A stretch of DNA of 64,000 nucleotides. Source: Nemopilema nomurai (Eukaryota > Cnidaria > Scyphozoa > Rhizostomeae > Rhizostomatidae). Shown one piece after another: positions 3,201 through 64,000 of this stretch; position 1 is the stretch's first letter, and the number at the start of each line of letters is the position of its first letter. The notes beneath the pieces are model-generated. The model saw only the letters and a list, made by a program, of their open reading frames with translations. It made no database searches and was not told the DNA's origin. The stretch lies in contig ML133401.1 in the NCBI GenBank assembly GCA_003864495.1, forward strand, positions 62,001 through 126,000, read 5' to 3'. The translations under genes and the position numbers were made by a program.

Positions 3201-6200
3201 GAGCTGAAAAGTTAGGCCTAGAGACAAATTGATTCAAGATGAAGTACCTTGCTTGGTATGCAAAGAACCGATGGCAATTGCCCTAAGCTTGGGTCGTTGG
3301 GGTTGGTAATAATGCAGGACCCAGCATTTGTGAATCTTGCCGTCAAATGGGGCTTGTAGAAGTGCAGAGGGGTAAGACGCTCGATCGGTTCTGGTGTTCC
3401 TGGGGATCCAGAATCAAAAGGTTAGCAGGCACACATAAAGGACGTGCAGCCTTCGAATAAAAACTATCATTAAAAAGGACTTTGCAGTAATAATGTTTGA
3501 GTTCTAATTCTACAGATAAAATATTGAGTTACCAAGAAAATCCTACTTATTTTCATACGCGTCGCGAATCTCGTACATGGTTAATACTTTGAGACGGTGT
3601 CCAGTTATTTCTGGCCTTAGAAATAACATAAATCAATAAGGCTCCAAAAAAATGTTAACCAGAGAGGTGATGAACATTCTGCCACTGAAAACACACTTAC
3701 TTTGTTCAAAAGTAGAAATCTCCTTTTTGCCCATAGCAAGTGTCTCGATTTCGTAATCATCCAAAGGCTTGTTGTCAATAACGGATGAAGGTCTGCTGTC
3801 AATATCAACTTCCGAGTTAGTGGAGCTTCGGTACGACATCTGATCGCTGTGATGGGACCTCGCGTCCCAGTTCACACCTGGATAGCCGGGATACCCATAA
3901 CCCGGATATCCCCAGTTTGCCATGTTGCTGAAATACCAGTTATAATAGTCAAAGTTGTAATTTTGCATGTATTGTCCATACTGAGAGTTCCAGGCCTGCA
4001 TTTGCTGAGGGTCCTGATACCCTGGATACGGAGGCTGCATTGGCCCGCCTTGAGGCATGCCACCAAACCGTGGGTCCGCATTCGGTTCTTGTTGTTGGCC
4101 GTAGTACTGCGAGCCAAATGGCTGCTGGCCAAACTGTTGTGGTTGACTAAATGCAGGTTGCTGTTGTTGTCCGTATGGCAGTTGCTGCTGTTGGCTAAAT
4201 GGCTGTTGCTGTTGATGGAAAGGTTGCTGTTGCTGTTGATTGAAAGGCTGTTGTTGCTGTTGATTGAAAGGCAGTTGTTGCTGTTGATTGAAAGGCAGTT
4301 GTTGCTGTTGTTGCTGCTGCTGTTGATGTTGGAAAGGCTGCATTTGCTGCTGCGCGTGAATCTGCGCAGAAAACTGTTGCTGCGGTTGTTGTGGAAATTG
4401 ATTTTGCTGCAACTGTTGTTGCTGTTGAGATAGTTGAGCTTCGTGTTGCTGAGAGAACTGTGGTTGCTGCTGTTGAGATAGTTGGGCCTGTTGTTGCTGT
4501 TGAGATAGTTGAGCTTCGTGTTGCTGAGAGAACTGTGGTTGCTGCTGTTGAGATAGTTGGGCCAGTTGTTGCTGTTGAGGAAATTGAGTCTGTTGCTGGG
4601 AGGACATCGGTGGCTGCTGAGAGTGTTGACCCATCATTTGCTGGGAAAATTGTGGTTGCTGCTGAGAGAATTGTGGTTGCTGCTGCTGAGATAATGTAGT
4701 CGGTTGCTGCGAGGATATCGGTGGCTGCGAGGATATCGGTGGCTGCTGAGATGATTGGCCCTGAAGTTGCGAAGCGAATTGTGGTTGCTGCTGCTGAGAT
4801 AATGGAGTCGGTTGCTGCGAGGATATCGGTTGCTGCGAGGATATCGGTGGCTGCTGAGATGATTGGCCCTGAAGTTGCGATGCGTATTGTGGTTGCTGCT
4901 GCTGAGATAATCCCTGTTCCTGTAGTTGTTGCTGCTGCTGACGAGCCACATGCTGTTGTGTCGGCTGCTGTTGCTGCAAAGGCTGAGACATATTTTCCAA
5001 CAGTTGGTTACGCTGCTGGTTTTCCTTCTGTTCCTGGTTTGAAAAAGGTTGTTGCAGTTGTTGTGATGGCTGTGCAAAGAGCTGTTTCTGCTCGTTGAAG
5101 TGGCTCGTGTCCTTGTGGCCTTCTTGATACTCACTTTGGGGATACTGATTTCGAGACGGAGCATGTTGAAATGAATCATCTGCGTGAGGTGGTACTTGTT
5201 CCGACTGCGGTAAGATCTGACTATGAGACTGGTCTTCCAATGGCATGGGGTTGACTGCCTCTGGTTGGCTGCGGAGGTCCTGCCTATTTACAAAGCTGGA
5301 CTGGGGAGGCTCATTACCACCGTACTCATTACCCACTGAAGGCTGCTGGTGTGCGAGCACAGCTTCGTTTTGAGTATATCTGTGAGCCAGCTCTGTTCCC
5401 GACGCATAGATGGCACCACCTGCCGATTTCTCATTCACAATAACAGGATTTATATTCTCACTAATTGTGCCCGGTGGGTCAGCATCCACAAGGGGTTTCT
5501 TCACAGAGCTACCTCCTTGTGATGAAACTAGTCTGATTCCGAAATCGTTGCGCGACGGAGGAGCCTCTGTTTGTATCTGCTCAACCATAGCAGTTTTACC
5601 AGCAGAGACTGTTGACGGTTGAAGACCTGCTGTTCGATATTGCACCGTGTCTTGCGTATACCCTTGATCGCCGGCGCCTGACGAAGCTGAATACGCTGGG
5701 GAGGAGTAAACCGGATTTGCTGATGAAGCGCTAAATTGCCCAGGCAGTGCCGTGCTTGACTGTGGCAAAACTTCACCAGGCCATATAGGCTTAGAGGAGC
5801 ATGCGACTGATGGGAAGGCTGTTTGCTCATTATAACTAGATGAAACGGAATACATATTATCATGGCCGCTGAGATGCGGGGTATTCTCTTGCGAAGGCGC
5901 ACCAGAATCACCCTGTTGAAACTTTTCCGCGACCCTCGTTGCACGATGAGCCGGAGAAGATTCGCCCTGCGGGTTAAACTCAATGCCATGTATGTTTTCT
6001 TTAAATCCGCTGGACTGCACGTTTTCACCTCTAGCGGGCTCCATTTTAGTCCTATCAATCACACTTTTTGACGAGCTTCCACTAGACAAATCAGAAGAGG
6101 AATTGCTATCTACCTTCTTCGAGTCCTCAACTGCATCGAAATGTGGCCTCTCTCGTGAAGGCGAAAGAGAGCTATACGACCCACGGGATGGGAAGTTCTC

Positions 6201-8912
6201 TTTGCTCTTCGGGTAATCTCTACGAACATGGTGTTGCTGAGGCATGCTCTGAGATCTGTCCAATTCAGTTGAGGTATTCCCCAGCTCCTGGGACCTTGGG
6301 TCTAATATAAGAGAGGGCTGATCTTCAGTGTATCTTGGAGTATCATTGAAGATCTTGGAGCTGGTAGAAGCTGATGAGTGGGATAAATGATCTGCTTGAG
6401 AAGTGGACGGAAAAAGCAAAGCACTAGCCTCTGTGCCACTTTCTTTCATGCCAAAGGCCTTTGGCTCCTCAGCATCAAAGCCTGACTTTTCAAGACTATC
6501 TGCACTGAAGTTGGCAGGGCTTATCTGTTCAGCAGTCTTACTTGTCTTTACCGCTGCAAAGGCAGATGGATGACTGTGGTCTCCCAACTGCTGCCTTTCA
6601 AAGCTTGGAACTAGGCCCTGGGTTGGTGGTGGGTGGCTGGGATAGTTTGGTGCTACAACACCAGTTTGAAAATTCATAGGATCAGCTTGATTTCTAGTAT
6701 ATATGTTAAACGGTTCACTGTTACTAAAGCTGTCAACGACACTTTCATGTGGTTTAGGAGGAGCAGCCGCCATTGGAGGAGCGGTCGGGTATTGTGATGC
6801 ATTGAAAGGCACAACTTCTTTTTCTGCTTTATCTGGTACAGCATTTGGGCTAGCCTGTTAAGAAATCAAATGTCACCACATCATGACCATATACGATTTG
6901 GTAATTTTTATCAAACTGCAGAATTAAAATACTAAACAATACACATACATTTAATGCTTCACTATTGACTTTAATTATTCTCATGATTGGATGATACGGA
7001 ACCTGCATCTCAGAACAAAGGAAAAAAGTTCCCACAACACTCTTTAGCCATCAAGTTAAAATTTGGTAGATCAAGAAAATCAACCCAAACAAAATTCTTA
7101 ATTCTTAACCGCTAAGTGAGGCTGCATCTTGGTATATAAAAAGAATGAAACTGGCTATATGTCAAAAGGGTTATTTTCTTATTCCCATGATTTCTTCTGA
7201 CCGACTGGACTTTAAACGCTTTGGTAATTTTGACTTAAAAACTACAACGGAAATAAGGAAAGAAAAAAGCAGCCTACTTGGTTTTCATAGAATGAATCAT
7301 TTATTGTCTTGTCCCTCGTTTGTTGCAATAAGGTTTTTCCTGATTGCAGTGGTGCTACTGCTGGGGCATCTTTTGACCCTAGAAAAACGAAAGTTGTTGC
7401 AAGCAAAACAAGAAATCTTGGTTGAAGAATCTTTCAAAAATTTTCAGTCTGCTTTTTACAAAAAGCTATGATCAGTTTTTCAATGAGTGTGGATTCCTTG
7501 AAAGAAAATATTTGAATGCAGCTGTCAGAATGTAATGAATTAAGAAGCATCTTGATGTCAATCAATGCAAATTATGATACTGATGATTTTGGTATGGTGA
7601 AGTGTTGATGATAGTGATAGTGGAGTGATGATGATTTGAGGGACAATCCAAATGAATAACAAAGAGACAAATGGAGTATTATTGATTTTGACTGTTTGGT
7701 GATGATCATGACAGCATGATGGAAACTAAAAATCCAACATTGAGTGGATAGCATTATGGCAAAAGAAATAACTTTCCTTGTTTCATATTTGATTTTAAAG
7801 ACCCATTATGGAAAAAAAATATAGAGATTACATAGGCCATCTTACCCCTAAAAATATGTTGCTCATTTGTCTTCACGTCATCAGGGCTGGATGACAAATC
7901 ATCATCACTTTCAATATCATCATCAGATTCATTGTCAGATGTTGTCTCATCTGATTCATCAGTATCTTCATCTGCATAATCATTTAGACATTGGTCAGCA
8001 GGCATATTACCTCTGTTAGGAGGACCCATGCCTTTTGGAGACCTCAAACTGAGCTGATCAAAGGCAGAGCTAATGTTTTCAATGGCTGCGTGATTATAAT
8101 TCACATTATGATGGGTATTTAGTTTGTTATTATATTGAGGTACAACTGGCTTTGTTTCTTGTGGGCTAAATGTAGGAGGCAGACTTGCATGTGTCTGCTC
8201 AAGATATGGCCCTTCTTCAGGTGACCCAGGCCAACTGAGACTTCCAGTGCCGGGGGGTTTAATGTTCCAGGAATTATCATCACCTCGCATCTGCATTCTG
8301 TTAGCTGATTGTTGTGGGTCAAAAGGTGGTAGCATTGCTCCAGATGAAGGTGGAGCTCCAGGTACATAAGGGCCATTGACATTACCAGATGGTGTTAAGC
8401 TGGGGGGATTGAATGGTGAATGCATCATAGGTGGATATGTTGGTCTGTGTGGAGGGACATTCGTAGGAGGATTTGATGGTGCAAAAGCATTCATCTTGGA
8501 ATATGGGCTACGACTCTTTCCCTGCATACCAAAAGGATTCCCTGCTGGTAATCCCTGGCCCTGAAAATAACATTTAGCTGAGATCAGACATCAAAACCAT
8601 CATTTCAAAACAACATATCTGGTTTAAGTATAATTCAAAATTACAAAACAAGTTTGTGAATATTAGTAGTTTAAAGTACATGCCACCAAATAAATACCTG
8701 TGTTCAATAGTGCAACTTCAAAACTAGGGGTTTACAACAGACAAGAGTTTGAGGTTCAAACAAAGGATTAAATGTTCATCAGATATTGTGGGTTCCAATT
8801 TTGTCCATGTGTTTTAACCAAAACCCCAGTAACCCAATGAGGAGAAATGTACTCACCAGAGCTGCAGGAAATGGAGGTGGGCCAAACTGTCCAGAAACTG
8901 GTGGTCTTGGTC
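207..8912 (-). CDS. SEC16A: COPII coat assembly protein Sec16 (partial; C-terminus off left edge, first exon unresolved)
   Basis: Sec16 scaffolds COPII coat assembly at ER exit sites. Exons inferred on the minus strand, in coding order: 8912-8857, 8560-7846, 6854-3701, 3399-3248, 2807-2758, 2649-2505, 1994-1824, 1319-1222, 685-604, 327-207, about 1,580 codons. The last seven match the vertebrate Sec16 central conserved domain: EFPGPL (2.8 kb), MALLWEYMAMLVKHNG (2.6 kb), DLWGHAL followed by KMDHKLHHVVMSR (1.3 kb), and DWREHLAML with LSLGDAL (0.3 kb). Their phases agree across every junction. Upstream come a Pro-rich N-terminus, a run of Asp/Glu (about 7.9 kb), a Ser-rich stretch, a Gln-rich tract and a Tyr/Gly-rich segment, as is usual before this domain. 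The donor at 7846 (phase 1) does not fit the phase-0 acceptor at 6854, so either a small exon is missed or a weaker donor at 7877 (phase 0) is used. A possible 60-nt phase-0 exon lies near 6958-7017. The start codon was not found. Sec16 identity is confident; the 5' end is not. Confidence 0.9.
1358..1427. repeat. 13-bp tandem repeat in a Sec16 intron
   Basis: About five copies of a unit ATGATATAAAAAA. It ends some 35 bp upstream (minus-strand sense) of the acceptor of the exon at 1319-1222, so in the transcript it is a T-rich stretch ahead of that splice site. Confidence 0.85.
4130..5080 (-). repeat. Gln-rich coding repeat tract inside the large Sec16 exon
   Basis: Roughly 320 codons dominated by CAG/CAA, read on the minus strand, in a 3,154-nt exon. 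Two longer units are visible. A block of about 120 bp containing SSQQP and FASQLQGQSSQQPP motifs occurs twice (about 4690-4900), and a block containing FSQQHEAQLSQQQQQ occurs twice (about 4430-4560). Shorter LPFNQQQQ units follow near 4200-4300. The CAG and CAA codons are mixed rather than pure, which tends to stabilise the tract. Opposite-strand open frames here are artefacts of the repeat. Confidence 0.9.
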
Positions 8913-32565: not shown

Positions 32566-34956
32566 TCACTGCTTTGCGGCCTGAAGCGCGTCCATAGCCG
32601 ACGGTGCCACGCGAATCATCCTCAGTGACAGGTTTGTGAATTCATAGGAATAACCCTTATAGGTAACCCATTTTCCATCTTCGGCTCCTCTCGTGTGGGT
32701 CCCGCTAACCAGCTTTGTTCCCTCGCTCATGCGACAGGAGGTCACAATGCCTTCGTGGTACCTCTCTCCGCCGGTGTTGTTGCCCTCTGTGCCCTTGTAA
32801 GCGCCCTGCGGAAAGAAGATGACTGAGCCAACACCTACGTCATCAGCGTCTGGCACAAGGTCAAGGGCGACCTGGTTGTAAGGCTGGACGCGCCCACTGG
32901 GGTCTCCGTCGTCCCAGTTCACGGTATACTCCAATGTTGATTGGTTGAAACTGACCACAGTCGCCATGTAGTAGGCACACTGGAAATGATGACTCACAAC
33001 ATGGTCACCGACTCTAGGTGCTCGATAATCAACCTTCTTGACTCCTTCTGATAACGGGGCCTCGATGTGGAGAATTTTATTTATTTCCTCCACGCACTGC
33101 TCCACCTTTGTTGCAAATGCTTGTTTATCAGAAAGGCCTTGAAGGTCTATTGTTTCCTTGGCACTTCCTGCAAGCAAAGCGCCAATCACCGATGACTTCC
33201 ACTGATCTCCCTGTCCAACGATCAGCGGGACAACAGGCTTCTTCAGTGACTTCATAGCGAACTGGAACTCCATGCGGCAGTTTGGACTACTGGCGTACTC
33301 ACTGCTCACACAAGGCACAAACACTTTGCAGTCTTTCAGTGCTGCGGTGAGTTGCTCGTACATGCCTGCCCCTTGATTCGCTGACCTCAGGCGCTCAATG
33401 TCGATCCAAACCTTCAGGCCAGCCTTCTGTAACTCGCTCTTCACCAAGCGTGGGTCGGAAAACTCACTGCCAATAAACCCATCAATCTGCTTGGCTGTTT
33501 CGGCAATTCGCGAATTGGTCCAATTGTACGACAGAAAAACGTCCGCATCGCCTTCTTCCATCTGAACGCCGCCTCCCGAGTCAGTGACGTCAGCAATTTT
33601 ACCGAAATGCGCTTTCAAGGCCTGCAGCAACTCGCTAAGCTTGTCGTTCTCGACTGTCCTGTCTTTGAAATGGATGTACAACTCCCCAGCGACTAGCATG
33701 CCCACTACCGACAGGGTCCAGTCGAATGACCCGTCGCCAACTACCAGTGGCACAACCGGGGTGCCAAGGGTGGTCTTTGCGTACTGAAATTCCATCCGGC
33801 ACTCGTTGTTGGCCACATACTGGTCACTGATGCATGCCACGAACACTTTCGCTTTTTTCATCATCACGGCTGTCTTTTTCAGGTCGTCGCTGTTGTTTGC
33901 TCTTCGTTCTCCAATTTTAAGGCCCTGTTGCCTCAAATAGGATATAATATCGCGCGGGTCGCACAGTCTATCAAGCACTGGGAGGTACCGTTCGGGCGCC
34001 TGCGCAATTTCATTGTTTTTGATGGCCGCAGGACTGTCAGTAACAGTGTAAGAGAAAAAGATATCAACACCATCATCGGGATCGTCGTTGCCTCCTGAAT
34101 TTTGATCGTCAAGAATGTCAAACACGTTAGGGCCGATTCTGAGGTCATGTAGCTCTTTTCCAGCAAATGTGTAATTATAACCGCCGTAGGTGACCCACTT
34201 ACCGTCCGCCTCACCTTTAGTATGGCAGCCATCGAACAGTCTTCGACCATCCGCAGTTTTAGTGATATGTGTAATTTTACCCTCGTGCCACCGAAGCCCA
34301 GAAGTGGCTCCCCCAAATCTGCTCCCAGAATAGCTGCCCTGCTGGAACAAAACAATACTGCCAATAGAGATCTCATTGGGGTCTGGGGTTTTGTCCAGAG
34401 CGAGGTTGTAATAGTCGACAAATCGCCCGGTGGTGTCTTGATCATCCCAGTCTATTTCGTACTGCAGCTCTTCGGATAGAAATCTTTTGATAGTCGCGTG
34501 GAAATACTGCCACTTTGTATGTTCCCACATGGCTAGGACTTTGTCGCCAACCCGGGGCAAAGACTTATTTCCCACTTTGTTCGGCTTCGGTGGCGTGTAT
34601 TCTGTATCCTTGGCCGCCATCAGTGCCATTGGTTTCGCCGCCGGCTTTACGATCTGGTTGGGCGTGTATGCGTGCGTCTGTTCATAGTGCTGCAGAAGAT
34701 CGGCACCGTTAGCGAAGCCCTTTCGATCACACTTTGGGCAGGAGATTTCAGCCTGCCTGTTCTGTGCGCCGCCGTGAGCTTCTTCCACGTGCGCGATTAG
34801 GTCTGCACCATTAGCAAAACCTTTCAAGTTGCATTTGGGACAGGCTAAGTTCTGCGGCGGGTGCTGTTTTTCTATGTGGTACAGGATGTCATCTGAGCTG
34901 ACAAACTTGTGGTCGCATCTCGGACATCGAAAGGGTTTCGACTGGCTGCAACCCAT
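32566..34956 (-). CDS. Lipid-anchored C2H2 / Tudor-like / TIR-TIR / Tudor-like protein (796 aa)
   Basis: One uninterrupted coding exon. The N-terminus MGCSQSKP is a textbook N-myristoylation site (Gly2) with Cys3 for palmitoylation, as in Src-family kinases. Three C2H2-like fingers follow: C11/C14/H27/H32, C39/C42/H56/H61 and C73/C76/H90/H95. Residues about 134-280 form a Tudor/Agenet-like module (VGDKVLAMWE, YEIDWDD, WVTYGGYNYTF). TIR1 spans about 296-452 (DIFFSY, KVFVACISDQY, CRMEF) and TIR2 about 470-630 (DVFLSYNW, VWIDIERL, KVFVPCVSSEY, CRMEF). A second Tudor-like module closes the protein (about 647-785; VGDHVV, YTVNWDDGD, WVTYKGYSYEF). Glu389 and Glu563 in CRMEF align with the catalytic Glu of NAD-cleaving TIRs such as SARM1, and TIR2 also keeps IDIERL like SARM1 IDVEKL. 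NADase activity and an innate-immune or cell-death role are inference. An acceptor eight bases before the ATG implies a 5' UTR intron. I do not recognise a named orthologue. Confidence 0.9.
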   Translation of the reverse strand: MGCSQSKPFRCPRCDHKFVSSDDILYHIEKQHPPQNLACPKCNLKGFANGADLIAHVEEAHGGAQNRQAEISCPKCDRKGFANGADLLQHYEQTHAYTPNQIVKPAAKPMALMAAKDTEYTPPKPNKVGNKSLPRVGDKVLAMWEHTKWQYFHATIKRFLSEELQYEIDWDDQDTTGRFVDYYNLALDKTPDPNEISIGSIVLFQQGSYSGSRFGGATSGLRWHEGKITHITKTADGRRLFDGCHTKGEADGKWVTYGGYNYTFAGKELHDLRIGPNVFDILDDQNSGGNDDPDDGVDIFFSYTVTDSPAAIKNNEIAQAPERYLPVLDRLCDPRDIISYLRQQGLKIGERRANNSDDLKKTAVMMKKAKVFVACISDQYVANNECRMEFQYAKTTLGTPVVPLVVGDGSFDWTLSVVGMLVAGELYIHFKDRTVENDKLSELLQALKAHFGKIADVTDSGGGVQMEEGDADVFLSYNWTNSRIAETAKQIDGFIGSEFSDPRLVKSELQKAGLKVWIDIERLRSANQGAGMYEQLTAALKDCKVFVPCVSSEYASSPNCRMEFQFAMKSLKKPVVPLIVGQGDQWKSSVIGALLAGSAKETIDLQGLSDKQAFATKVEQCVEEINKILHIEAPLSEGVKKVDYRAPRVGDHVVSHHFQCAYYMATVVSFNQSTLEYTVNWDDGDPSGRVQPYNQVALDLVPDADDVGVGSVIFFPQGAYKGTEGNNTGGERYHEGIVTSCRMSEGTKLVSGTHTRGAEDGKWVTYKGYSYEFTNLSLRMIRVAPSAMDALQAAKQ

Positions 34957-34966
34957 TTCAAAACCT
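34957..34966 (-). promoter_or_regulatory. Putative 5' UTR splice acceptor of the TIR gene
   Basis: Read on the minus strand, CTCTTTGCAG directly precedes GTTTTGAA-ATG, a strong pyrimidine-rich acceptor (AG at 34,966-34,965). It suggests a non-coding upstream exon, not located. Confidence 0.55.
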
Positions 34967-36649
34967 GCAAAGAGATGAATCTTAATATGAAGCTAGATAA
35001 TGTCTCTATTTGCCTGTAACGAAAAGGAATCGGTATCCTGAAAAATGGCACATGCTATTTTGATGGCACATGTTCTTGCACTCTATGGCTTCAACTGAAG
35101 AGAAAGGGTCAAATAACCTTAGACTACGGAAAGCGAACAGTTGAAAATGTTTGGAGCGTATAAGTGGGTCTCGCTGTAAAAAATTATAGACATACAGTTC
35201 CAGCAAATATCTCAAAATTTTTATTATAAATTCTCAAGGATTTTGATATGTATGTATATTACGAAATTGTTTGTTTCGAGAGACTTGCTAAAAATTGCCT
35301 CTTGAAGTTCCATGACGTATGATTGAAGTGAAAAAGAAATAAATGAAAAAAATTGAAAATTATAAACTTGGAGATTTGAGCAGTCTTGACTAAACGGGTC
35401 CTTCTAAACATTTTAATGTTTTTCTATCCTTGAAAGCATCAAGTAATTCTGAAATATCTTGGGATGCTTAAAAAAATTATGAACAAAGGCAGAAGCTTTG
35501 CATTTTTCGAGTTGACAAAACTTTTTCCCACGACAAAGGAAACAATCCCTAGCCAATAATCTGGATAATTCGGTTGCAAATCAAATTTTCTGATTGATCA
35601 AGTTGCGAATCTAATAATGATAATCTTGTAGTCTTACTTTCATTATGGTACGGCCTTGTGAAAACTTGGGAAGCAGTTTGAAAAAATTTAAATCAATTGA
35701 AACAGCTGGATGATTGCTTCGAATTTAAAGACGGGTTCAGAACACAAAGCTGTTGATAAGGAGCCATGAAAAGTAAGGGTTTTGACATTTCTCTGGTTTC
35801 AACATTAACCTCATAATCCACGCATTACATGTACTTTCAGTCAATACGGTTCATAAAGGTAATATGAATTGACCTAAGAGAACTGGAGCCATTCAAACCA
35901 AAGGACAACAGAGCACCATGGAAACTAACAGAGAGCCAATAACAATAACAACCTAACAATGCTCATTGTTGCATGTGGTAAGTCTAAAGCGGTCTTGAGG
36001 TGGCGATTTTTGGAAAACGACTGAATCGAGCACGTTGAAGCAGCCCGTGCTGCTATCTCTTGCTTGATAGATGATACGGCTGCTGTCCTTCCAAGTTCCG
36101 ATTTTAGCGTGATGTCACTTTTGGCATCACATCGAGGCTCTGGTCTTCCGAGGCTAAACGGCTAAACTAATGTTAATAGGGGTATAATTAGGGACAATTG
36201 TATTTTAGATTGTAATAGGGACTATAGGCAAGTCATGTGTAAACAGAACGCCGAAGTGAACTCAAATTGATACGGATCTTTTTGGGACGGGGTAACGGGG
36301 TCTCACATGAAGGCTATTGATCGTCATCATCACGACCACTCCCTAAGCCAGCATACACTGACATACAAAGCATTCAATTAAATTTGTCAAGCCAATTTAC
36401 GCTTGCCGATGGGGGTGGTCTCCCAACCTCCCACAACAACCCCTCATAAATGTATTTGTGATCGGGCAAAGGATTTTGCAACAACTTGACACTAAGGGAA
36501 ACAAAGCTTTATAATTATTTTTAGGTGCCTAATCAATGGGGGGGGGGGGAATAAGCGGGGGAGCATCGGCAATCTGAAGTAAGTCCAATAAGTGGGGGTC
36601 GAAATAAGGGAGAGCGGAGTTATCACGAACACTTCCGCTTTCGTAGCGT

Positions 36650-42594: not shown

Positions 42595-42735
42595 TCATGG
42601 ATCCCTTATGCCTTTAATTACAGGGAGCTGGCAACTCTCCTCATTCTGGGTGAAAGTTTGGTCACGCCAGGGACTCGAACCATGGACCCTTGGGTCCGTA
42701 GTCAGCGCCTCTAACCACTGAGCCATCCTCGCACT
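42595..42735 (-). mobile_element. tRNA-derived SINE
   Basis: On the minus strand an RNA polymerase III A box, TGGCTCAGTGGT (42,725-42,714), and B box, GGTTCGAGTCC (42,681-42,671), are spaced as in a tRNA. The acceptor arms do not pair (GCGAGGA against GCGTGAC), so it is not a working tRNA gene. A non-tRNA tail of about 75 bp follows. Confidence 0.7.
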
Positions 42736-42756
42736 CAAAGTATGAGATTGACTGGG

Positions 42757-44441
42757 AACAATGAAATTGTGCAGGCGCCCGAACGGTACCTCCCAGTGCT
42801 TGATAGACTGTGCGACCCGCGAGATATTATATCCTATTTGAGGCAACAGGGCCTTAAAATTGGAGAACGAAGAGCAAACAACAGCGACGACCTGAAAAAG
42901 ACAGCCATGATGATGAAGAAAGCGAAAGTGTTCGTGGCATGCATCAGTGACCAGTATGTGGCCAACAACGAGTGCCTGATGGAATTTCAGTACGCAAAGA
43001 CCACCCTTGGCACCCCGGTTGTGCCACTGGTAGTTGGCGACGGGTCATTCGACTGGACCCTGTCGGTAGGGGGCATGCTGGTCGCTGGGGAGTTGTACAT
43101 CCATTTCAAAGACAGGACAGTCGAGAACGACAAGCTTAGCGAGTTGCTGCAGGCCTTGAAAGCGCATTTCGGTAAAATTGCTGACGTCACTGACTCGGGA
43201 GGCGGCGTTCAGGTGGAAGAAGGCGATGCGGACGTTTTTCTGTCGTACAATTGGACCAATTCGCGAATTGCCGAAACAGCCAAGCAGATTGATGGGTTTA
43301 TTGGCAGTGAGTTTTCCGACCCACGCTTGGTGAAGAGCGAGTTACAGAAGGCTGGCCTGAAGGTTTGGATCGACATTGAGCGCCTGAGGTCAGCGAATCA
43401 AGGGGCAGGCATGTACGAGCAACTCACCGCAGCACTGAAAGACTGCAAAGTGTTTGTGCCTTGTGAGCAGTGAGTACGCCAGTAGTCCAAACTGCCGCAT
43501 GGAGTTCCAGTTCGCTATGAAGTCACTGAAGAAGCCTGTTGTCCCGCTGATCGTTGGACAGGGAGATCAGTGGAAGTCATCGGTGATTGGCGCTTTGCTT
43601 GCAGGAAGTGCCAAGGAAACAATAGACCTTCAAGGCCTTTCTGATAAACAAGCATTTGCAACAAAGGCGAGCAGTGCGTGGAGAAATAAATAAAATTCTC
43701 CACATCGAGGCCCCGTTATCAGAAGGAGTCAAGAAGGTTGATTATCGAGCACCTAGAGTCGGTGACCATGTTGTGAGTCATCATTTCCAGTGTGCCTATT
43801 ACATGGCGACTGTGGTCAGTTTCAACCAATCAACATTGGAGTATACCGTGAACTGGGACGACGGAGACCCCAGTGGGCGCGTCCAGCCTTACAACCAGGT
43901 CGCCCTTGACCTTGTGCCAGACGCTGATGACGTAGGTGTTGGCTCAGTCATCTTCTTTCCGCAGGGCGCTTACAAGGGCACAGAGGGCAACAACACCGGC
44001 GGAGAGAGGTACCACGAAGGCATTGTGACCTCCTGTCGCATGAGCGAGGGAACAAAGTTGGTAAGCGGGACCCACACGAGAGGAGCCGACGATGGAAAGT
44101 GGGTTACCTATAAGGGTTATTCCTATGAATTCACAAACCTGTCACTGAGGATGATTCGCGTGGCACCGTCGGCTATGGACGCGCTTCAGGCCGCAAAGCA
44201 GTGATGGTTTGTGTGAAGCGAATGTTGTCCAGGTGGTGAATAAACTATGAAAGAGCTTTTTCGACCAACCTAGAAGAAAGATTATTTTTATGTTTTTAAT
44301 GACATCGATGAGTCTTTTGACAGAATATGAGTTGATAAAATCCTTGTTCAATCTGTAATCTCTTTAACTTTAAGTTGTCTTGTATGATTAAATTTAGAGG
44401 AAGCAAAACAATGTTTTAATGTGTTGTTGAATTCAGGGGCT
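42757..44441 (+). pseudogene. Truncated, frameshifted inverted copy of the TIR gene
   Basis: Nearly identical to 32,291-34,017 in the opposite orientation. It begins inside TIR1, so the lipid-anchor site, zinc fingers and first Tudor-like module are absent. Frame is lost at three places: two bases missing at about 43,463 (TTGTGTGAGC reduced to TTGTGAGC), one at about 43,670 and one at about 43,682. The total of four missing bases explains why the reading moves through three frames (42,742-43,473; 43,454-43,693; 43,656-44,204). The second and third frames keep the rest of TIR2 and the C-terminal Tudor-like module. Homology runs about 200 bp past the shared AATAAA, so it arose as DNA, not as a poly(A)-ended retrocopy. 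The near-identity suggests a recent event. Confidence 0.9.
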
Positions 44442-51274: not shown

Positions 51275-51329
51275 ATGGCACAATTTCGTTTGGTTATAGT
51301 TTTATTGGCAGCCGTCTTTTCGGTAAAAG
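51275..51329 (+). CDS. Second signal-peptide exon, phase 1 (candidate first exon)
   Basis: ATG in the context CACGATGG, then MAQFRLVIVLLAAVFSVK and a donor AAAAG/GTAAAA leaving one base. The short basic N-region, a core of about 11 hydrophobic residues and the phase-1 exit are typical of secreted-protein first exons. It splices in frame to 54,643 (C1q gene) or to 52,245. It is the nearest signal peptide to the C1q exons and so my preferred first exon for that gene. Confidence 0.55.
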
Positions 51330-54642: not shown

Positions 54643-57600
54643 GCTACCCTGAAATCGGTTTTCTGGGCAAATTATCGGCAGACATAACCCAGACCTCCTC
54701 AGGATGGAAAAAGGTTTCTGGGTGGACGACAACTTTGACAGATGTCAAAGGCTTATACAACTTTGATGCCGATTACAAGAGCAATGGGGACATCAGTGTC
54801 TATGTTTCTGGGATCTTCTTTGTCTCGGTAACTATTCCTGTTACCAATGCAGACACAGGTGAGCTCTCATTAATCATTGATCGTTGATCATTAATCATCA
54901 ATTGATTGCAATGTAGTTACAGTAGATTGACTGATTGCTTGGACTATCTCAAAAGCTGGGGAAAACAGCTCACACTATTTGTTACAGTGACATTTTCAAT
55001 TTTGCTTCTTTTATGTCCTTGTGTTCTTAATTGCCTTCGACGACACACTAAATGAATAATTCCAGTGGAAAAAGGCTCTGTTCTCTTCAGAGTTCTCTTC
55101 AAGCAAACAAGAGTCCAGAAAATGTTTACGGCTCCACGGCTGGGAGCTAGAGAACGGTTTTGCCTATTAATGTCATATTTGAGGATGGTTTATTAGTAAT
55201 TTTTTTATCAAAAATAATGAAAATGACTGTAAATGATTGAACATTTTTGTTTTGAGTTTGTAATGAGAAAGATTTTCATTACAAAAATGGCAGCTGGAGA
55301 AAGGTTAAAGCTATTTTTGGACTTGAACCAATTATCCAACCAACGGTGAACACATGTATTTCCCCAAACTCTATGTTATCACTAGATCCAAACCAATCAC
55401 CTTTTTGAAAGGATTACAGCGTAAATGCATTACATTGCAGGTAAATTCAGAGCCGCTCTTCTCATTAATGACAAGACGGCTGAGAAGGAGATCGGGCTGC
55501 AGTGTGAGATGGAGAATGTCACTGCGGGGACGCAAATGCTTAGCTTTGCCGGATTCATCAGTCTGCGCGCGGGAGAAAACGTCGCCATTTATGCGTATGC
55601 ATCGACAGACAGCTCCTGGAGCATCAAGTCACAAGCCAGTCTGACGTTCCACTTCTTCGGGAACTACGGCTCATCGCCTGCTTTTCTTGTCACACCCCAA
55701 GCAGCGCAGTCGATTTCAAATCCGTCCGGGTATCATGTTCCTTCTTGGTCCAAGGTTGGACGTGCAGGCCTTTTCCAGAGTCTTACTGGTAAGGATGAAT
55801 TTGCGCGCAAACGTTTATTGATGCCCCCACAGTGCCGGGGACTAGATGTCTAGTGCTCAGAGGTTGAAGAAGAAGCTAGGAATGCATGGAGGAGATGTTG
55901 TCAAGTTTGTTGACTATGGATTTTCAGCGTGAAAACATTGTAATATTTGGCAAGAAGAAAGCTAACATTATTTTGGACAATGTTATGCAACCTGAATACT
56001 GAATATGCTTGAATTCGCCATTTAATTGCTAACTCCTCTCCATTTTCAGGTTTATCAGCAACTACAGGGAAATTCACTGCTGTTTGCTCCGGAGTGAACA
56101 TATTGGCGGCAAACATAATATTCGAAGGTGGCCCGGGCACGTATAGTGTGACAACAGTCATAAATGACAAACAGTCTGTGTTGGGTACGGTAGTGCTTCA
56201 AAGCAAAGGAATTGCAACGCTGAATGTGTACCAAGCGTTCTTCACTCCAAAGGCAGCCAGTTTGTACTTGGCGGTGACGTCAACGGCAGGTTCCATGAAG
56301 ATCTTTGGTCACAGTACATGGTCGATGGCTTTCATTGGTGGAACATCGTCAAATATCCCAGAATTCTCCAGCTTTTTGCGCTCATCGGTGGACCAAGCAG
56401 GCGGAAGCTGGAACGAGTTGCCGGGGCTGTTGAGGACAAGCGTGACGCAAGCATCGGATGGCAGTGACACAGGTCAGTTCATTCAGCCATCCAACCTGGG
56501 ATTGATCAACACGCAGAATTTCGTCATGCAAGAACAAACTGACTTGTACTTTGCATTCATCAATTTGGTGTACTCTGGCAACGCAACGAACATCGAGGCT
56601 ATGATTGCTGTCAGTGCGGACAAATCAACATCTACTGGTATGTGATGCGTTTAAATTACCTCCTTCTTTTTGCGATGCTCTTCAGTAATTGGTTTGTACA
56701 ATTCTCTTGAGTACTTGCTTAATTGGTATCAATCAAATTCCTGAGAGCAGAGAGTAAACTTCTGGCGCATTAGTTGCAAGGGAGCTGATAAAATATAGTT
56801 TTGTCTGAATATCTTATTCAGTCATTTAGAATTTTGAAATTGTGTCCCAGATGCAAACCCTGAGTAACATTATTGCTAGGATATAGCTTACACGCTTTTG
56901 AATACTGTAGAAACGGTTCATTCGGTGCTTATCTAGTATTGCATACTTCTTATTGTTTCAAAAGTGAAACATTGCAAATGACATTTCTACTTGCTTGTAA
57001 CAGGCAAAGAGGGAATCTATGGAACATTCTCAAAACAGGCCCAAGAATTTGGATCAATGTCTCTTGGGGGTATTTTCCAGATCCGCAAACAGGAACATTT
57101 GAGCGTTTTCATAAAGGCAAACAACAACGTGAAGATCCACAATACATCTTTCACTTCTTTCGTGCGGATGCGGTATGTTGTGTCTGGCTTTGGTGCCAGA
57201 ATACAGACCAAGATGACGATCCAGAAATCTGGATGGGTGGAGCTGACGGGCCCCTGGCTGACAGAGACCTATGGGAAGTTTTCATACGGCACGGACTTCA
57301 GTCCTTCGAACGGAAAGTTCACTGCCTCACAGCAAGGCGTTTACATGGTGTCAGCCAACATCCAAATCAACAATGGAGACAACGCCGAGATCGCTCTGCT
57401 CTTGGTGAAGAACGGGGTCATTGACGTCAACAACGGCTTGCACGCCGTGAACGGCCAACCATCCTCCGCGACAACGCTGAATATGTATGGGACTGTAAGT
57501 GTCAAGACGGGGGACGTCCTCAGTCTCTATGCATACAGAAGCAGCGCATCCACGTGGGAGGTTGATATTGACAGTGGATACTCGATCACGTACATCGGAC

Positions 57601-60600
57601 CCAACTGGGCAGCCCTCGGCTTCCATGCCGTCCTTACCAATGACCTTTCGAGTGCTAGCGGACAAACACTGGTAACGGGGTGGACTACAAACAGCTCTAG
57701 CACTTCAACCACGTACACAAACACTGAAGGGCTCACAGCCACTCAATTCACAGCCGAAAACGACGCAGTATACATTGTATCGGCAAACATCTACCTGCAG
57801 AATGTATCGATGCCCGGCAGCTCCAACGGCGATTCCAATTTTGACCTTCAGGGCTACGTCAACGGCATTCAATCGAACCGGCTGGGCCTGTCAGACATGA
57901 AGCCATCACTGGCAAGCAGTACACGAGATTACTTCACTCTGAGTTTCAGCGGCGGTGTGCGAATGTTGAAGGGTGACACATTCTCCATGTACGTGACAAC
58001 TGCAGATTCGACATACACAATATCAAAGAAGAGTGGCTTCTCAGTGGTCATGGTGTCCCTTTACACAAATGAACACAACGCTGGCTTCATGGCATCCAAA
58101 AATGTGGAATCATATATTGGCTTAAGCTCTGTGAACGTTTGGACAGGCTTGGTGGACATTCAGGATGGAGCCCTAAGTGGGAGGTACACGATCGGGCCCC
58201 CACTTACCAAGACGCCCGAGGCATACTTTTCCGTTTCAGAACCAGGGCTTTACTACGTGTTCGGGAACTTCCGGCTGGATAATGCTGGTGGTGGCACGGC
58301 GTTCGAAGCCCATGCGGAAATTGACAGCCAGTCCTCCGTCACGTACGGGATGTATTCCGTGGATGGATCCCCGAAGGGAAGGAAGTACAACTTGAACTTT
58401 GGAGGCACGATGTACTTGACCTCTGGCCAGGTCATACGAGCAATGATTCGCACATCCAAGTCGTCGTATACCATCGATGGTGGCTCAAGTTTCGCCATTG
58501 TGAAGTTGCAACTGGACCAACGGTTCCCTGGTATTGTTGTGGACAAAATTGAAACAATGTATCAGCCCAACCAAGTGCTTAGATCCTGGGAGGAAACCGG
58601 GAAGCCAGGCCTTTTCACGAGGTAGCTTTGATTCATAGAAAAATGAATTTCTTGTGCACATCTGTCATGTACTCATTATAGAAAGCATTCTGTTGTAGCT
58701 TCATTTGCAACGCTGAAGGTGAATAATAGTTCGGCTTTTAAAAAGAGCCAACACTCTTGACAGATTGTACCATTATTTTATCAATTTCGACAAGTGAATT
58801 TGAATAGTTGTTAGTCAAGGGTTTATGACTTTCTGTTGCATGAGCGCCATCTGTTTCTGCCTAATCATTTAATTTGACTACATATGTCATGTTTATGGTT
58901 CAATTGTCATTCACCATAAATCTTGTTCACAGCAACATCGGGTTTAACGCCTCGTACGGAGCATACACACCTCCATTTGCTGGCATATACATCGCCTCCA
59001 TCAACAACTACCTTGCTTCTGTAACTGGCAACAGCAGTGTATCCTTGATAACTATGGACAACTCGAACGTCTTTGGAGCCTATGGTTCGGAGGGCATAAA
59101 CAGGACAAAGCTTGCCACATCGGCCTTGTTCTTGAACACCAGTCAGGTCTATCAGCACCTACTCAACACCTCGGTATCTGGCAGCTACCCTATGCGAGCC
59201 GGTTGGTCCCTCTACTTCGTCAATCCGCTGAACCGAGCCATTGGCTTTGCTGGCCCTCTCGTGGACACCTACACCCTTTCCTCTGCCAATGTCTGGGGTG
59301 TCGTTTCTGGCTGGAACGCTAGCAGCGCTGCCTCGGGGTTCTCCACCGTGTCGCCATCTCAGCCCGACTCATACACAGCAACGAAAGCCGGCCTGCATTT
59401 CGTCAGCTTTCTTCCGATTTTTGCCCGATCATCCTCCGCTTACAATGTAAAGGCAGCCATTTACCTCAATTCAGAGGTATTTCTGCTCGCCTCTCACCAA
59501 TACCAATCCACTGGAGAGATCAAATCACTGCCGGTTTCTGGAACAGTGAACTTGAAAGTAGGAGACGTTGTTTCATTCAGAGTGTACAGTTCAATGCCTG
59601 ACCTGGTACTCACGACGGAGACAAGGAGATCATTGATATTTGTCGATGGTAAGTGGTGCCTTTCTGTAGTGCACTAAGGTCATTTGCTTCATTGCTCAAG
59701 CGACAGTCCGAGGTTGGCTAAACTGATTCTCCATATATTTATACAACCACGAGGCTGTTTATCCAGGTTCTGCAAAAACGCAGTGGATGTCAATTCTGTG
59801 CTGATAATGTTGACAGTCCTCTTAGGCTTCGGGTGCATTTCTACTTGTGCGCTAAACTTCTCATGAATGCAAAAACAATCCTGCCATATTCCTGGAACTT
59901 CTTCCAAGGTCTGGGCAGGTCTGTGAGTAAATGTCAAAGGATCCCAAGATGTGAATGCTTCCTCAAAACAAGTTTGGTTTTTTCTGCCTTTTTATCTTTT
60001 GTCTTTATATCTTTTTTGCAGCTTTTTTGATGCTTCTTGTTCTTTTAGACATCACGTCAAACACTGAGGGTGTTGCCGCACACCTTCCTGCAACGGAAAC
60101 AGTTTCAAGCACAATGACAACTCCATACCAACTCCGCAACTTTGTGACCTCGAAAACTGGATCATTTTTGCCACAAAATGAAACTATGGACGCTACAGGA
60201 GTTCTCACCAACTTTCACGCTGGCGTTTTTCTCTATACCACAAACATCGTAGTCAAAAACACCCAAAGTAGACAGAGGTTTGCATTTCTCACTAGTTTCA
60301 CATATTGATATTATTGTTAAAGGAAGTTGTCAAGATCAAGCTGACGTATCTGGCAAGCGCATGCTTGAGCGTTTGTCTAGCAATGTTCACTTTTCTGTTC
60401 AACTCCATAGTTTGCACAACTATGATCCCGGACAAAACTGTTGTAATAAACTGTATCGAGTTTCGAAAACACGCTCTCGAACGTTTGTGGAACACAGGAT
60501 ATTTTTAAACCAAAATCGTGAACAAACCATTGATGTTGCTGTTTTGATTTCAGGCGATTTCACATGTATGTGAAGCTGAACAACCAAACGGAAACTCCAA

Positions 60601-63600
60601 TAAGTTTGCAGTCGATTGAAACAATCCCCGCCATGGGAGAAGAAACGTTATCATTCTCTAGCAGCATGTTTCTGCCACGTTTCTCAAGAGTTGAAACCCT
60701 GATCTCAGCTGATGACGACTCTGCATTTGAGGTTGCAGCAAACAGCACAGTGACTTTTGTCCTTATAGGTAGGCCTTTGTCAATTTTCGGCTTCAGTCCT
60801 CTTGTTTTGATATATTGATAACGTAGTTTGACTGCAAACAGCTCCGTACTCGTCATTAAGCATTGCTAATACATACGAAGACAATATCCCTATACTACTG
60901 CTACACTTTGAAGCGAACAAGAGAAAAGACTCCCCCTTTTGTACAAAAGAAAGCTTTGTACCTTATACATTCACTATTGATGTCAAAGATCTTCATCATA
61001 GCTACTGACTGAAATTGGAAGAGTAATGAAGGGTCCACGTGACACTATCGCTTGCCCTGTTTTTCTAGTGTTTAGGATACGATCAACTAATGCTATGTAT
61101 TGTTATCTTCTTGATTACATTTGCCTACATTACATCTACTTGCAGATGACAATACAGGCCCAGTCTTGTGTGAAGATACTGGTTTGAACTTGGAGGCTCT
61201 CAACCCGTCCTCCCTTAGGATCAGCACTGAAAAGACAGCAACATTCACTTGTTCAGTTGTCGGCAACATCCCCGCCACTTTAACTTGGTACAAAAACGGA
61301 GTGGTAAGTTGCCTTAGGACTCCAATTTCTTAAAGAAATGAAATTGGCTTAAATATTTTGCATATCTAGAATCCATCCATTTTGCTTCTTGGTAATGTCC
61401 ACTGTATCTATTTCATAACTGTTGAACACTATTAATATGAATCTTCCACATTTGCCCTTTCACCTTCCACCTTTGCCCTTTCACCTTCCACCTTTGCCCT
61501 TCTGACCTTTTGTTTCATACATTACATCTCTCATCTTTCAACTTCTCACTTTCAATTATTGAACATCTTGCCATCCTTTGCATTTCTAGCTTCCACCCTA
61601 GAACTTTTATCATTTACGAAGCGTCTCTTTGTGGGATTAACTCTACATCTGACTTTCAAAAATGAGAAAGAGTTTATGCTGCCCAATAATGCCGAACCTA
61701 TAGGAAAAATTTCCTGCTCTCCACAATTTCATTCTTCATAAGAGCTATTAGACATGCTTTGGAATAAATGCTTCAGGTAATGCTTTAAACACATTCTTCT
61801 CAGTCTATGATCGATTTCATTTTATACTGCAAGGTAATTGTGTTTGATTTTCTCATTTGTAGCTTATCCCTGGAGCAAGTGGTGCAACTTTGACGATTAC
61901 CCCAACATCGTTGAGTGATTCAGGAAATTATGCGTGCAGGGCGGCCTACAGATCATTGACATCAACAACAAATAATGCTACACTCAGTGTTTATGGTAAG
62001 AAAATTTGTTCCATTTCAAGTACCAGTGCATCCCATCTCTATCAGAAGGTGTCGCATTTTCCCTCTTAGTACCAACTCCATAAGTACGTAATACCACAAT
62101 AGCCTGTAATCAGGTTGGCACCATTTCTATTTTTTTATTACCACGACAGTGACAGCAAAGGCTAATCATTATCTTGTGAAATATTCAACAAGGCTGCGTT
62201 GATAAAGATATCCAATCGTGCCTTTTTGGGCGCTTAATAATTGATGAACGTGGAAAGGATCGACACTTCCCCTATTGAAGTGGTCTTCATCTACTGTTTT
62301 AATGCTCAATTCCACAAAATTTTGTTTAATTTAGCTCTTCAATTATTGCTCATATAATTGCTTTCATCTGAGGTGACATAAATCTTGCCAGCCTTTGTAT
62401 GTATAGACACCCATGAGGGATTACCTCTGACATCTGCCCGTCCAAACTCCTCTTACCGAAACACATTTGTCTGTCTTCGCTTAGACCCAACTCCGCAAAT
62501 CACAGCAGCCTCGTACAGCGTCGTTGCTCAGGAAGGCACGATAGCCGGAACATTGATACAGACATTTACAGTCAGTGCGGAGAAGTTTGCGATTAACCAA
62601 AAAGCGATTGTTTCTGCCACAATTGTTGGAGGTTTGTTCATTCAAATGTTGTTAATTACTGATCATGTTTACAGCCAAAAGCTCCAGTCACATGCAGAAG
62701 GACCAGGTTAAACCCAACAGAGTTTGCGTGCAGAAAATGTTGTACCATTTAGGTAGCCAATTTGTTCAGAGTCTTATTGCCATCTGCAGCATTTTGTACT
62801 TTATTTCGTAATCCTTATGAGTACTTGTAAACTGGCCAAACATTTATTGTTTGTTGGTTAAAAGTGTCTCTACTGTGGGACTCTGCTGCACCTTACGATA
62901 CTGGTGCCGTATTTCACCCTTAGCTATTCTTCTTAATCTGTTACCAATAGGTGACCCGGATGGTGACCTACAGTTCAGCAGTGCATCAACAACAACTGTT
63001 ACCTTGACAACAACACGACCCCTTGACTATGAAAAGAAGTCTTTCTATCAGCTATCAATAACAGCTGTGAATACGGAGGAGCCGGATGCACGCAACACCA
63101 CGATAACCTTCAATTTGACCGTCATTGACATTAACGATAATGGGCCTGTGTTTACCCCAGCTTTGATTCACCAGCCTGTGCCAGAGAACCTCCCTGTTGG
63201 GAGTCATGTCATCAGTGTGACAGCAGTCGATGCTGACTCAGGTGTATTTGGGATGGTCAACTACAGCATTGTCAGCAACCTTTCAAGTCCCTTCTTCGCG
63301 ATCAACGCGACCACAGGTCAAATCACGCTACAGAAGTCGCTGGACAGAGAGCAAGAGGACCGCTACATCATCATCGTGCAGGCGCGGGACTCGCTCTTCT
63401 CCTCAATTGCCGAGATTGTGGTGAATGTCACCGATGTGAACGACAACCAGCCGCGATTCAACCCAAGCTCGTATGCGCTGGACATCGTCGAAAACACTCT
63501 CGTCACCAGCTCGCTCGTTCAAGTGTTTGCGTCAGACCCGGATCTCCAGCTCAATTCAACTCTTGTGTACAGCATCTTGAGTGGCAATTCAGCAGGGCAC

Positions 63601-64000
63601 TTTGCCATCAATTCCCAGAGTGGAGTTATCAGCCTTGCAACCTCACTTGACTATGAGACGACAAAAACATTCAAACTCCTGATTGGCCTTCGGGACATGG
63701 GCAGCCCAGTACTACAGTCGAGCAACAACGCAACTGTTACCATCAATATTGTTGACATCAACGACAACTTTGCTCATTTCGAGAAGTCTCTCTACACGGC
63801 GTCGCTGGCCGAGACCAGCAGTCTGTCAGCCTTCGTCGTGCAAGTGAAAGCGGTCGATCGTGACGGCACCTCCAAGCACAGCAACCTCACTTTCAGCATC
63901 AACCAGACGCTGGCTTCCAGCATGTTTGCCATCAATTCAGTCACTGGTGTCATCACATTGAAAGCGAAACTGGACTACGAGCGGGTCAAGGAGTACCACT
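54643..64000 (+). CDS. Multi-C1q-like / Ig / cadherin extracellular protein (3' end beyond window)
   Basis: Exons 54643-54858, 55441-55788, 56050-56637, 57004-58621, 58933-59648, 60049-60277, 60554-60768, 61146-61303, 61863-61995, 62485-62631 and 62951 to the window edge, about 1,806 codons, open throughout with matching phases (mostly 1). The first 59.6% holds about nine consecutive C1q/TNF-type jelly-roll units of some 130 residues. The clearest, near 57.2-57.6 kb, shows GKFTASQQGVYMVSANI, a central LLLVKNG strand, SVKTGDVLSLYAY and a closing GYSITYIG. Exon borders often fall at the GKFTA strand, inside the domains. An Ig domain split over two exons follows (TFTCSV, LTWYKNG, LSDSGNYACRA). 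Then come cadherin repeats with calcium motifs DINDNGP, VDADSG, DVNDNQP and DINDN; three are complete and a fourth is cut by the edge. The product is presumably a large secreted or membrane adhesion protein. The start exon is uncertain (51,275 or 47,147). The family is unknown to me; domain calls are confident. Confidence 0.9.
61443..61502. repeat. 21-bp minisatellite in the Ig-domain intron
   Basis: Three copies of a pyrimidine-rich unit CCTTTCACCTTCCACMTTTG within the intron that splits the Ig domain of the C1q-cadherin gene. Confidence 0.85.

Follow-up and report, generated by a model that had tools for sequence, protein, structure and literature searches.

The end of a contig fragment from the jellyfish Nemopilema nomurai, 64,000 nucleotides in length (the window, C36:62,001-126,000), contains a run of exons that encode tandem C1q/TNF-like units, an immunoglobulin (Ig) domain and cadherin repeats. 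This locus raises the question whether these parts belong to one protein and what an array of jelly rolls in front of a cadherin stalk might build. Our analysis supports a single gene predicted to encode a type I membrane protein of ~5,650 residues. We consider it fairly probable that this protein combines a distal head of nine jelly rolls, probably arranged as three pseudo-trimers, with an Ig domain, 36 cadherin repeats, a membrane stretch and a tail with several tyrosines.

Gene model

Open frames and splice sites were joined manually into a gene model with genomic DNA as the sole source, and the sequence examined comprised the window and 50 kb beyond it (114 kb; coordinates on C36 equal window coordinates plus 62,000) of an assembly of 213 Mb in 226 contigs. 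The model contains 31 exons and 30 introns and holds one open reading frame, which starts with the ATG at 51,275, spans 5,655 residues and closes with the stop codon at 81,195; the gene is cut by the window end, and its 3′ part reaches this stop. Every intron is of the GT-AG type, 20 of the 30 are in phase 1, and the pooled GC content is 0.48 for exons versus 0.36 for introns. The phase-consistent exons described in a first-pass annotation of the window were thereby confirmed, every joint keeping one frame. Its start at 54,643 proved too late, as a putative signal peptide, assigned by eye, is encoded by an upstream exon whose phase-1 donor (GTAAAA) is in frame with exon 2 (Table 1). Exons 2-8 (54,643-60,768) encode the nine tandem units, exons 9-10 the Ig domain, and exon 11 onward the cadherin repeats. 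The membrane stretch and the tail are not visible within the window, nor are the EGF stalks of two paralogues described below.

The nine units of the head

Pfam recognised the head only in part. TNF exceeded the cut-off in unit 3 in both scanned pieces, C1q reached E 0.0057 in unit 4, which is under the cut-off, and the C1q/TNF scores of the other single units likewise stayed under the cut-offs; exon 6 alone matched no Pfam family, and unit 8 had no Pfam match either. A search of the own genome with the Pfam C1q family gave no match, and the controls of this search gave none either, which fits the weak match of the window exons to the C1q model. Since only TNF exceeded its cut-off, a unit profile was made from 17 units of the database proteins P0001 and P0003, with no window sequence included. 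With E-values computed for one sequence, this foreign profile marked nine units, no more and no fewer, along the 5,655-residue chain, where about nine had been proposed; they occupy residues 22-1,324 (E 4.1e-35 to 3.1e-6), units 2, 3 and 7 covering about half of the profile, and the remaining ~4,330 residues yielded a best match of only E 0.0072. In a six-frame scan of the 114 kb, all 11 matches at E <= 0.01 were located on the plus strand in exons 2-8, and the antisense frames gave no match at this threshold. Chance similarity was rejected, as the foreign profile picks up nothing beyond the nine units and the antisense frames are blank.

P0001 and P0003, in which the profile counts nine and eight units, respectively, both exceed the C1q and the TNF cut-offs, as do the paralogue pieces, and in the 11 rows of alignment A2, TNF and C1q each matched 10 rows at E <= 0.1. 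Judged by these sequence matches and by the nine profile-marked units, the units are members of the C1q/TNF superfamily. A Gly-X-Y run was not seen in the protein by eye; nine N-terminal units are present instead of a collagen stalk with a single C-terminal C1q domain.

Predicted structure of units 4-6

Units 4-6 were modelled as one chain with AlphaFold2 (AF2), yielding two models from two alignments with a predicted template modelling score (pTM) of 0.85-0.86. The three units are predicted as jelly rolls matched to C1q/TNF structures, in agreement with the fold first proposed, and for both models the best structural matches were single-chain C1q/TNF trimers, extending over all three units. 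Units 4-6 are thus predicted to fold as a trimer within one chain. The earlier idea that the whole array builds trimers in this way is strengthened for these units, to which the evidence is confined; units 1-3 and 7-9 may do the same. As units 4-6 are encoded in one expressible exon, the intrachain trimer is directly testable.

Ig domain, cadherin stalk and tail

In the cadherin part, the Pfam scans covered the stretch of exon 12 that lies in the window, the whole of exon 13 and everything from residue 4,896 onward; exon 7 for its greater part, exons 14-20 and the end of exon 12 lay outside them. The anticipated Ig domain was recovered by Ig_3 above its cut-off, and Cadherin (PF00028) exceeded its cut-off with up to 571.7 bits in exon 13; of the families named for checking, TNF, Ig (as Ig_3) and Cadherin exceeded their cut-offs in the window protein, and C1q did not. 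By its tandem PF00028 repeats of ~105 residues, the protein is a member of the cadherin superfamily. A profile derived from the protein's own repeats counted 36 of them at residues 1,429-5,276, ending at ~76,770. The expected calcium motifs are present as 15 DxNDN/E motifs, the remaining repeats lacking the exact motif. EGF, LamG and catenin-binding domains were not matched in the Pfam-scanned parts, and linkers rich in cysteine and proline occur at residues ~4,330-4,406 and 4,632-4,650.

The membrane-proximal region carries a basic RRKRR site, with RRKR at residue 5,359. Its assignment to the FN3-type domain of receptor phosphatases, which had been considered, was supported by neither PDB nor Pfam. 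Behind the hydrophobic stretch follows a tail of 179 residues with seven tyrosines, NPVY among them, and the C-terminus ITKL; NPxY motifs bind PTB domains, and C-termini such as ITKL can bind PDZ domains. Compared with Pfam, the tail matched only Cadherin_C_2 (19.1 bits, cut-off 31.5) and no other cadherin tail at E <= 1, so that the catenin-binding cytoplasmic part typical of classical cadherins was not recovered.

Relatives in other genomes

Protein searches could reach only relatives of exon-like or head-like length. Exon 5 retrieved nine relatives with 54-67% identity, the match ending at residues 940-944 in eight of them and at 953 in P0125, close to the exon border at 942 (the donor in unit 7); P0130 and P0131 run unbroken through the exon 4/5 joint in unit 3. 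Exon 12 retrieved 2,296 proteins at E <= 1e-5. The best 120 of these included 12 relatives (P0004-P0012 and P0014-P0016) with 60-73% identity, six of which start to match at residues 1,472-1,475 (exon border 1,475); the named matches beyond these close relatives, again among the best 120, were mostly FAT/Dachsous- or cadherin-23-like with ~28-36% identity. Contigs sized 390,812, 457,365 and 3,215,741 occur among both the exon-5 and the exon-12 relatives, the pairs being P0008/P0129, P0012/P0128 and P0014/P0124; the other relatives show no such pair. Because these sizes are common to both lists, jelly-roll and cadherin exons very probably lie together on three foreign contigs, contig identity being taken from equal size alone.

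A prokaryote origin was rejected: six peptide patterns of P0001 gave nine pattern matches but no relatives in 84,980 prokaryote species (one genome each), and P0002 had no match in phages. The genome itself looks animal, since cadherin matches (at least 150, with 150 scored of 368 candidates) and homeodomain matches (88, many of them partial) are present.

Paralogues with other stalks

A TNF search of the own genome hit five places, none within the window gene, and led to two paralogous genes, both on C129 (Table 1). The strongest TNF domain match of the genome is found elsewhere (C133:552,196-552,567, minus strand, E 3.5e-22). Paralogue B contains nine units in order, some recognised by one half only. 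Paralogue A contains six firm units (E <= 2.3e-6), to which fragments with E 0.0026 and 0.0027 can be added; another fragment, at E 0.1, did not surpass the strongest antisense control (0.091). Its sixth unit seemingly continues in another frame near 434,940.

Behind the jelly rolls of both paralogues, Ig_2 exceeded its cut-off. According to the open frames alone, the two Ig halves lie in two frames, broken behind a WYKN/WFKN motif just like the Ig of the window gene, and the Ig frames likewise read ...YG, followed by EGF sequence. The order of units is kept on average, both against B (diagonal z 8.06 vs 3.85, with 0 of 5,000 permutations as high) and against A (8.74 vs 4.23, p 0.006). The best unit match stood at the same position for four of ten pieces of B and for only one of six of A, and strict unit-by-unit homology was rejected, individual units often finding their closest counterpart elsewhere in the order. 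No cadherin match was located on C129 among the 150 scored of 368 candidates. A similar jelly-roll and Ig head is found on different stalks, and duplication of the head as a whole, followed by its joining to cadherin or EGF stalks, is therefore the probable course of events. Further members of this family may exist in the own genome.

Table 1. Features of the window gene (window coordinates, extended beyond the window end) and of its two paralogues (contig C129)
Feature	Position	Exons and introns	Strand	Evidence
Start codon and putative signal peptide (MAQFRLVIVLLAAVFSVKG)	51275..51329	exon 1	+	ATG, hydrophobic stretch
C1q/TNF unit 1	54643..55664	exons 2+3, intron 54859-55440	+	profile E 1.0e-26
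Unit 2	55665..56357	exons 3+4, intron 55789-56049	+	profile E 2.1e-12, positions 2-83
Unit 3	56358..57176	exons 4+5, intron 56638-57003	+	profile E 3.1e-6, positions 67-131
Unit 4	57177..57602	exon 5	+	profile E 4.1e-35
Unit 5	57603..58061	exon 5	+	profile E 5.1e-19
Unit 6	58062..58508	exon 5	+	profile E 8.1e-17
Unit 7	58509..59236	exons 5+6, intron 58622-58932	+	profile E 1.4e-10, positions 14-81
Unit 8	59237..60056	exons 6+7, intron 59649-60048	+	profile E 5.3e-9
Unit 9	60057..60768	exons 7+8, intron 60278-60553	+	profile E 1.8e-12
Ig domain	61146..61995	exons 9+10, intron 61304-61862	+	Ig_3 E 1.6e-11, 45 bits (cut-off 30)
Cadherin repeats 1-3 and part of 4	62485..64000	exon 11 62,485-62,631, exon 12 62,951-65,539 (passes window end)	+	Pfam Cadherin
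Membrane exon	78,713-78,860	exon 25	+	hydrophobic stretch from residue 5,442
Paralogue A	~431,920-440,943		+	jelly rolls, Ig, one EGF repeat, hydrophobic stretch, tail
Paralogue B	~2,757,905-2,768,309		+	jelly rolls, Ig, seven calcium-binding EGF repeats, hydrophobic stretch, short tail ending ESEV

Surroundings in the window and the genome

An open frame of 808 residues in the window (32,566-34,992, minus strand) shows an unusual mix of Di19/C2H2-type zinc fingers, two TIR_2 stretches and Tudor_3. Two adjoining open frames at 42,715-44,204 (plus strand), with TIR_2 and a Tudor-like match under the cut-off, are perhaps the same kind of gene. The open frame of 1,074 residues at 3,633-6,857 (minus strand) had no Pfam match at E <= 0.01, and at ~83,300-83,620 in the extended coordinates lies a tandem repeat that translates as RHDPD in one frame or ATILI in another. 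Elsewhere in the genome, cadherin matches fall within one open frame of 4,043 codons (C120:1,196,474-1,206,787, minus strand), and those at C73:704-3,142 and C127:1,460,407-1,462,845 have the same scores and spacing, perhaps representing a duplicated or unpurged stretch of the assembly.

Proposed design and rival explanations

In the design that we propose, the nine jelly rolls would fold in consecutive threes, giving three single-chain pseudo-trimer lobes per molecule, a binding unit that would assemble without partner chains or a collagen stalk. The Ig domain would join this head to the 36 cadherin repeats, which would keep it far from the membrane. Offering up to nine different faces on its three lobes, the head would bind a partner (another cell, matrix or a microbe), and stalk and tail would convert binding into adhesion and signalling, the tail either signalling or linking to adaptors. 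Ligand binding and signalling by such a receptor are inferred. Several observations tell against this design and are weighed here together with the rival explanations.

The gene model was derived from genomic sequence alone, and no single exon crosses the joint between head and cadherin part. Two adjacent genes, one for a secreted protein of jelly rolls (plus Ig) and one for a cadherin, might thus have been wrongly joined, and the paralogues do possess the head without cadherins. Nevertheless, exons 8-12 connect in one frame, and between 60,769 and 62,485 all nine frames that begin with an ATG (>=18 codons) lack a phase-1 donor matching the tried patterns, while the sole polyA-like hexamer of this region, at 61,763, is located inside intron 9. 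A membrane stretch was not seen between unit 9 and the cadherin repeats. Moreover, a phase-1 intron follows the ...YG with which the Ig domain of the window gene ends, and the paralogue frames show the same ending before EGF. The equal contig sizes in the three foreign cases point in the same direction; this evidence is indirect and silent on distance and order of the exons. Two genes are therefore very improbable, and the original claim that head, Ig domain and cadherins form one gene is supported by the gene model and the relatives. The absence of a Pfam match in the membrane-proximal region also counts against the design.

As to the head, several exon-5 relatives reach C1q or TNF only under the cut-off, P0129 matches neither, PDB sequence searches matched C1QL2/3 no better than with E 0.16 and 0.21, and P0001 had no match to PDB sequences at E <= 0.01. 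The units might also be real jelly rolls that do not pack within the chain, forming beads on a string or, from three chains, nine lateral trimers. Ordinary C1q/TNF domains are established to trimerise between chains, and a threefold periodicity in the similarity of the units was looked for and not found (p 0.43, 0.49, 0.89). In the second AF2 prediction, ranks 4-5 were weaker (predicted local distance difference test 63.9 and 62.8). The single-chain trimers in the PDB date from 2012-2016 and are possibly part of the AF2 training data, and AF2 may for this reason favour such packing for any C1q triple. We regard the lack of intrachain packing as unlikely in view of the pTM and the full-length single-chain trimer matches from two alignments, and of the recurrence of nine units in the window gene, P0001 and paralogue B (eight in P0003). 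A weightier alternative leaves the architecture unchanged and makes the head mainly an immune receptor for microbes such as food bacteria or symbionts. The three units of mussel HcC1qDC6, produced separately, bind bacteria according to the available part of PMC5519582, and frames with TIR domains lie in the same window, though neighbourhood says nothing of function. On the other hand, the head is conserved between species (54-67%) and not obviously hypervariable, and the cadherin stalk points to adhesion. Microbe recognition is thus a serious possibility, held with less confidence than cell-cell adhesion, our first choice, and the role of adhesion molecule suggested at the outset fits the domain content.

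For the single-chain design with three pseudo-trimers we see an evenly balanced case that it stands for an animal receptor family, in which natural single-chain C1q-type trimer heads (3 x 3) were shuffled among stalks of 36 cadherin, seven EGF or one EGF repeats. If true, nature made the covalent trimer that engineers built later, and the three faces of each lobe would be free to diverge, giving a multi-specific head for adhesion or recognition. One covalent trimer is predicted to be able to bear three different faces. With the same kind of head on cadherin and EGF stalks, domain shuffling would be traceable step by step, and C1q and cadherin in one chain with a built-in trimer head would represent a new design for adhesion or recognition.

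Comparison with known systems

Each part is of a known kind; to our knowledge, the domain combination, the number of units and the predicted intrachain trimer are without precedent. Three tandem jelly rolls per chain are likewise present in the single-chain trimers 5HKJ and 5HZF (gC1q), 4DOU (adiponectin), 5KCA (cerebellin-1) and 4ZCH (APRIL-BAFF-BAFF). These entries, which gave the best structural matches to both models of units 4-6, are engineered mammalian fusions (for 5KCA inferred from chain length), whereas the array of the window is natural, its nine units have diverged, and it is carried by a membrane receptor. The nearest published cases found are C1q proteins of two and three units. 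CTRP4/C1QTNF4 contains two natural tandem C1q domains (PMC10206021, in part), and HcC1qDC6 of Hyriopsis cumingii has three natural tandem gC1q domains in one chain, as in the window head; the available part of that source reports a signal peptide and three C1q domains and mentions no Ig, cadherin or transmembrane part (PMC5519582). The multi-C1q ghC1q proteins of bivalves are secreted and consist of C1q only, whereas the window protein adds Ig, cadherins and a hydrophobic membrane stretch. It also differs from the C1q complement subunits and CTRP/adiponectin, in which a collagen stalk carries one C-terminal C1q domain, by its nine N-terminal units.

Long cadherin arrays on a single-pass protein, as here, are characteristic of FAT/Dachsous-like and cadherin-23-like giants, and we know of no C1q/TNF head on these cadherins. 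Lefftyrin, Hedgling and Coherin are early-animal cadherins of sponges, cnidarians and choanoflagellates with unusual extra domains, which are not known to include C1q/TNF. Among the papers listed from the open-licence literature, neither a chain joining C1q to cadherin nor a single-chain C1q trimer of natural origin turned up. Among sources available in part, work on early-animal cadherins or C1q contains no C1q-cadherin chain (PMC5968619, in which C1q is unmentioned, and PMC5560861), and collagenous C1q is reported absent from Porifera and Coelenterata (PMC11312191).

Cerebellins and C1QL proteins are synaptic organisers working with surface receptors. A C1q-family trimer that acts with a cadherin is known from adiponectin, which is bound by T-cadherin (PMC12250294, in part). 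In the papers and structures found, C1q and cadherin meet only in this way, as separate ligand and receptor. In all of these systems, including cerebellins and C1QL, the two are separate proteins, whereas the window gene would unite both domain types in one chain.
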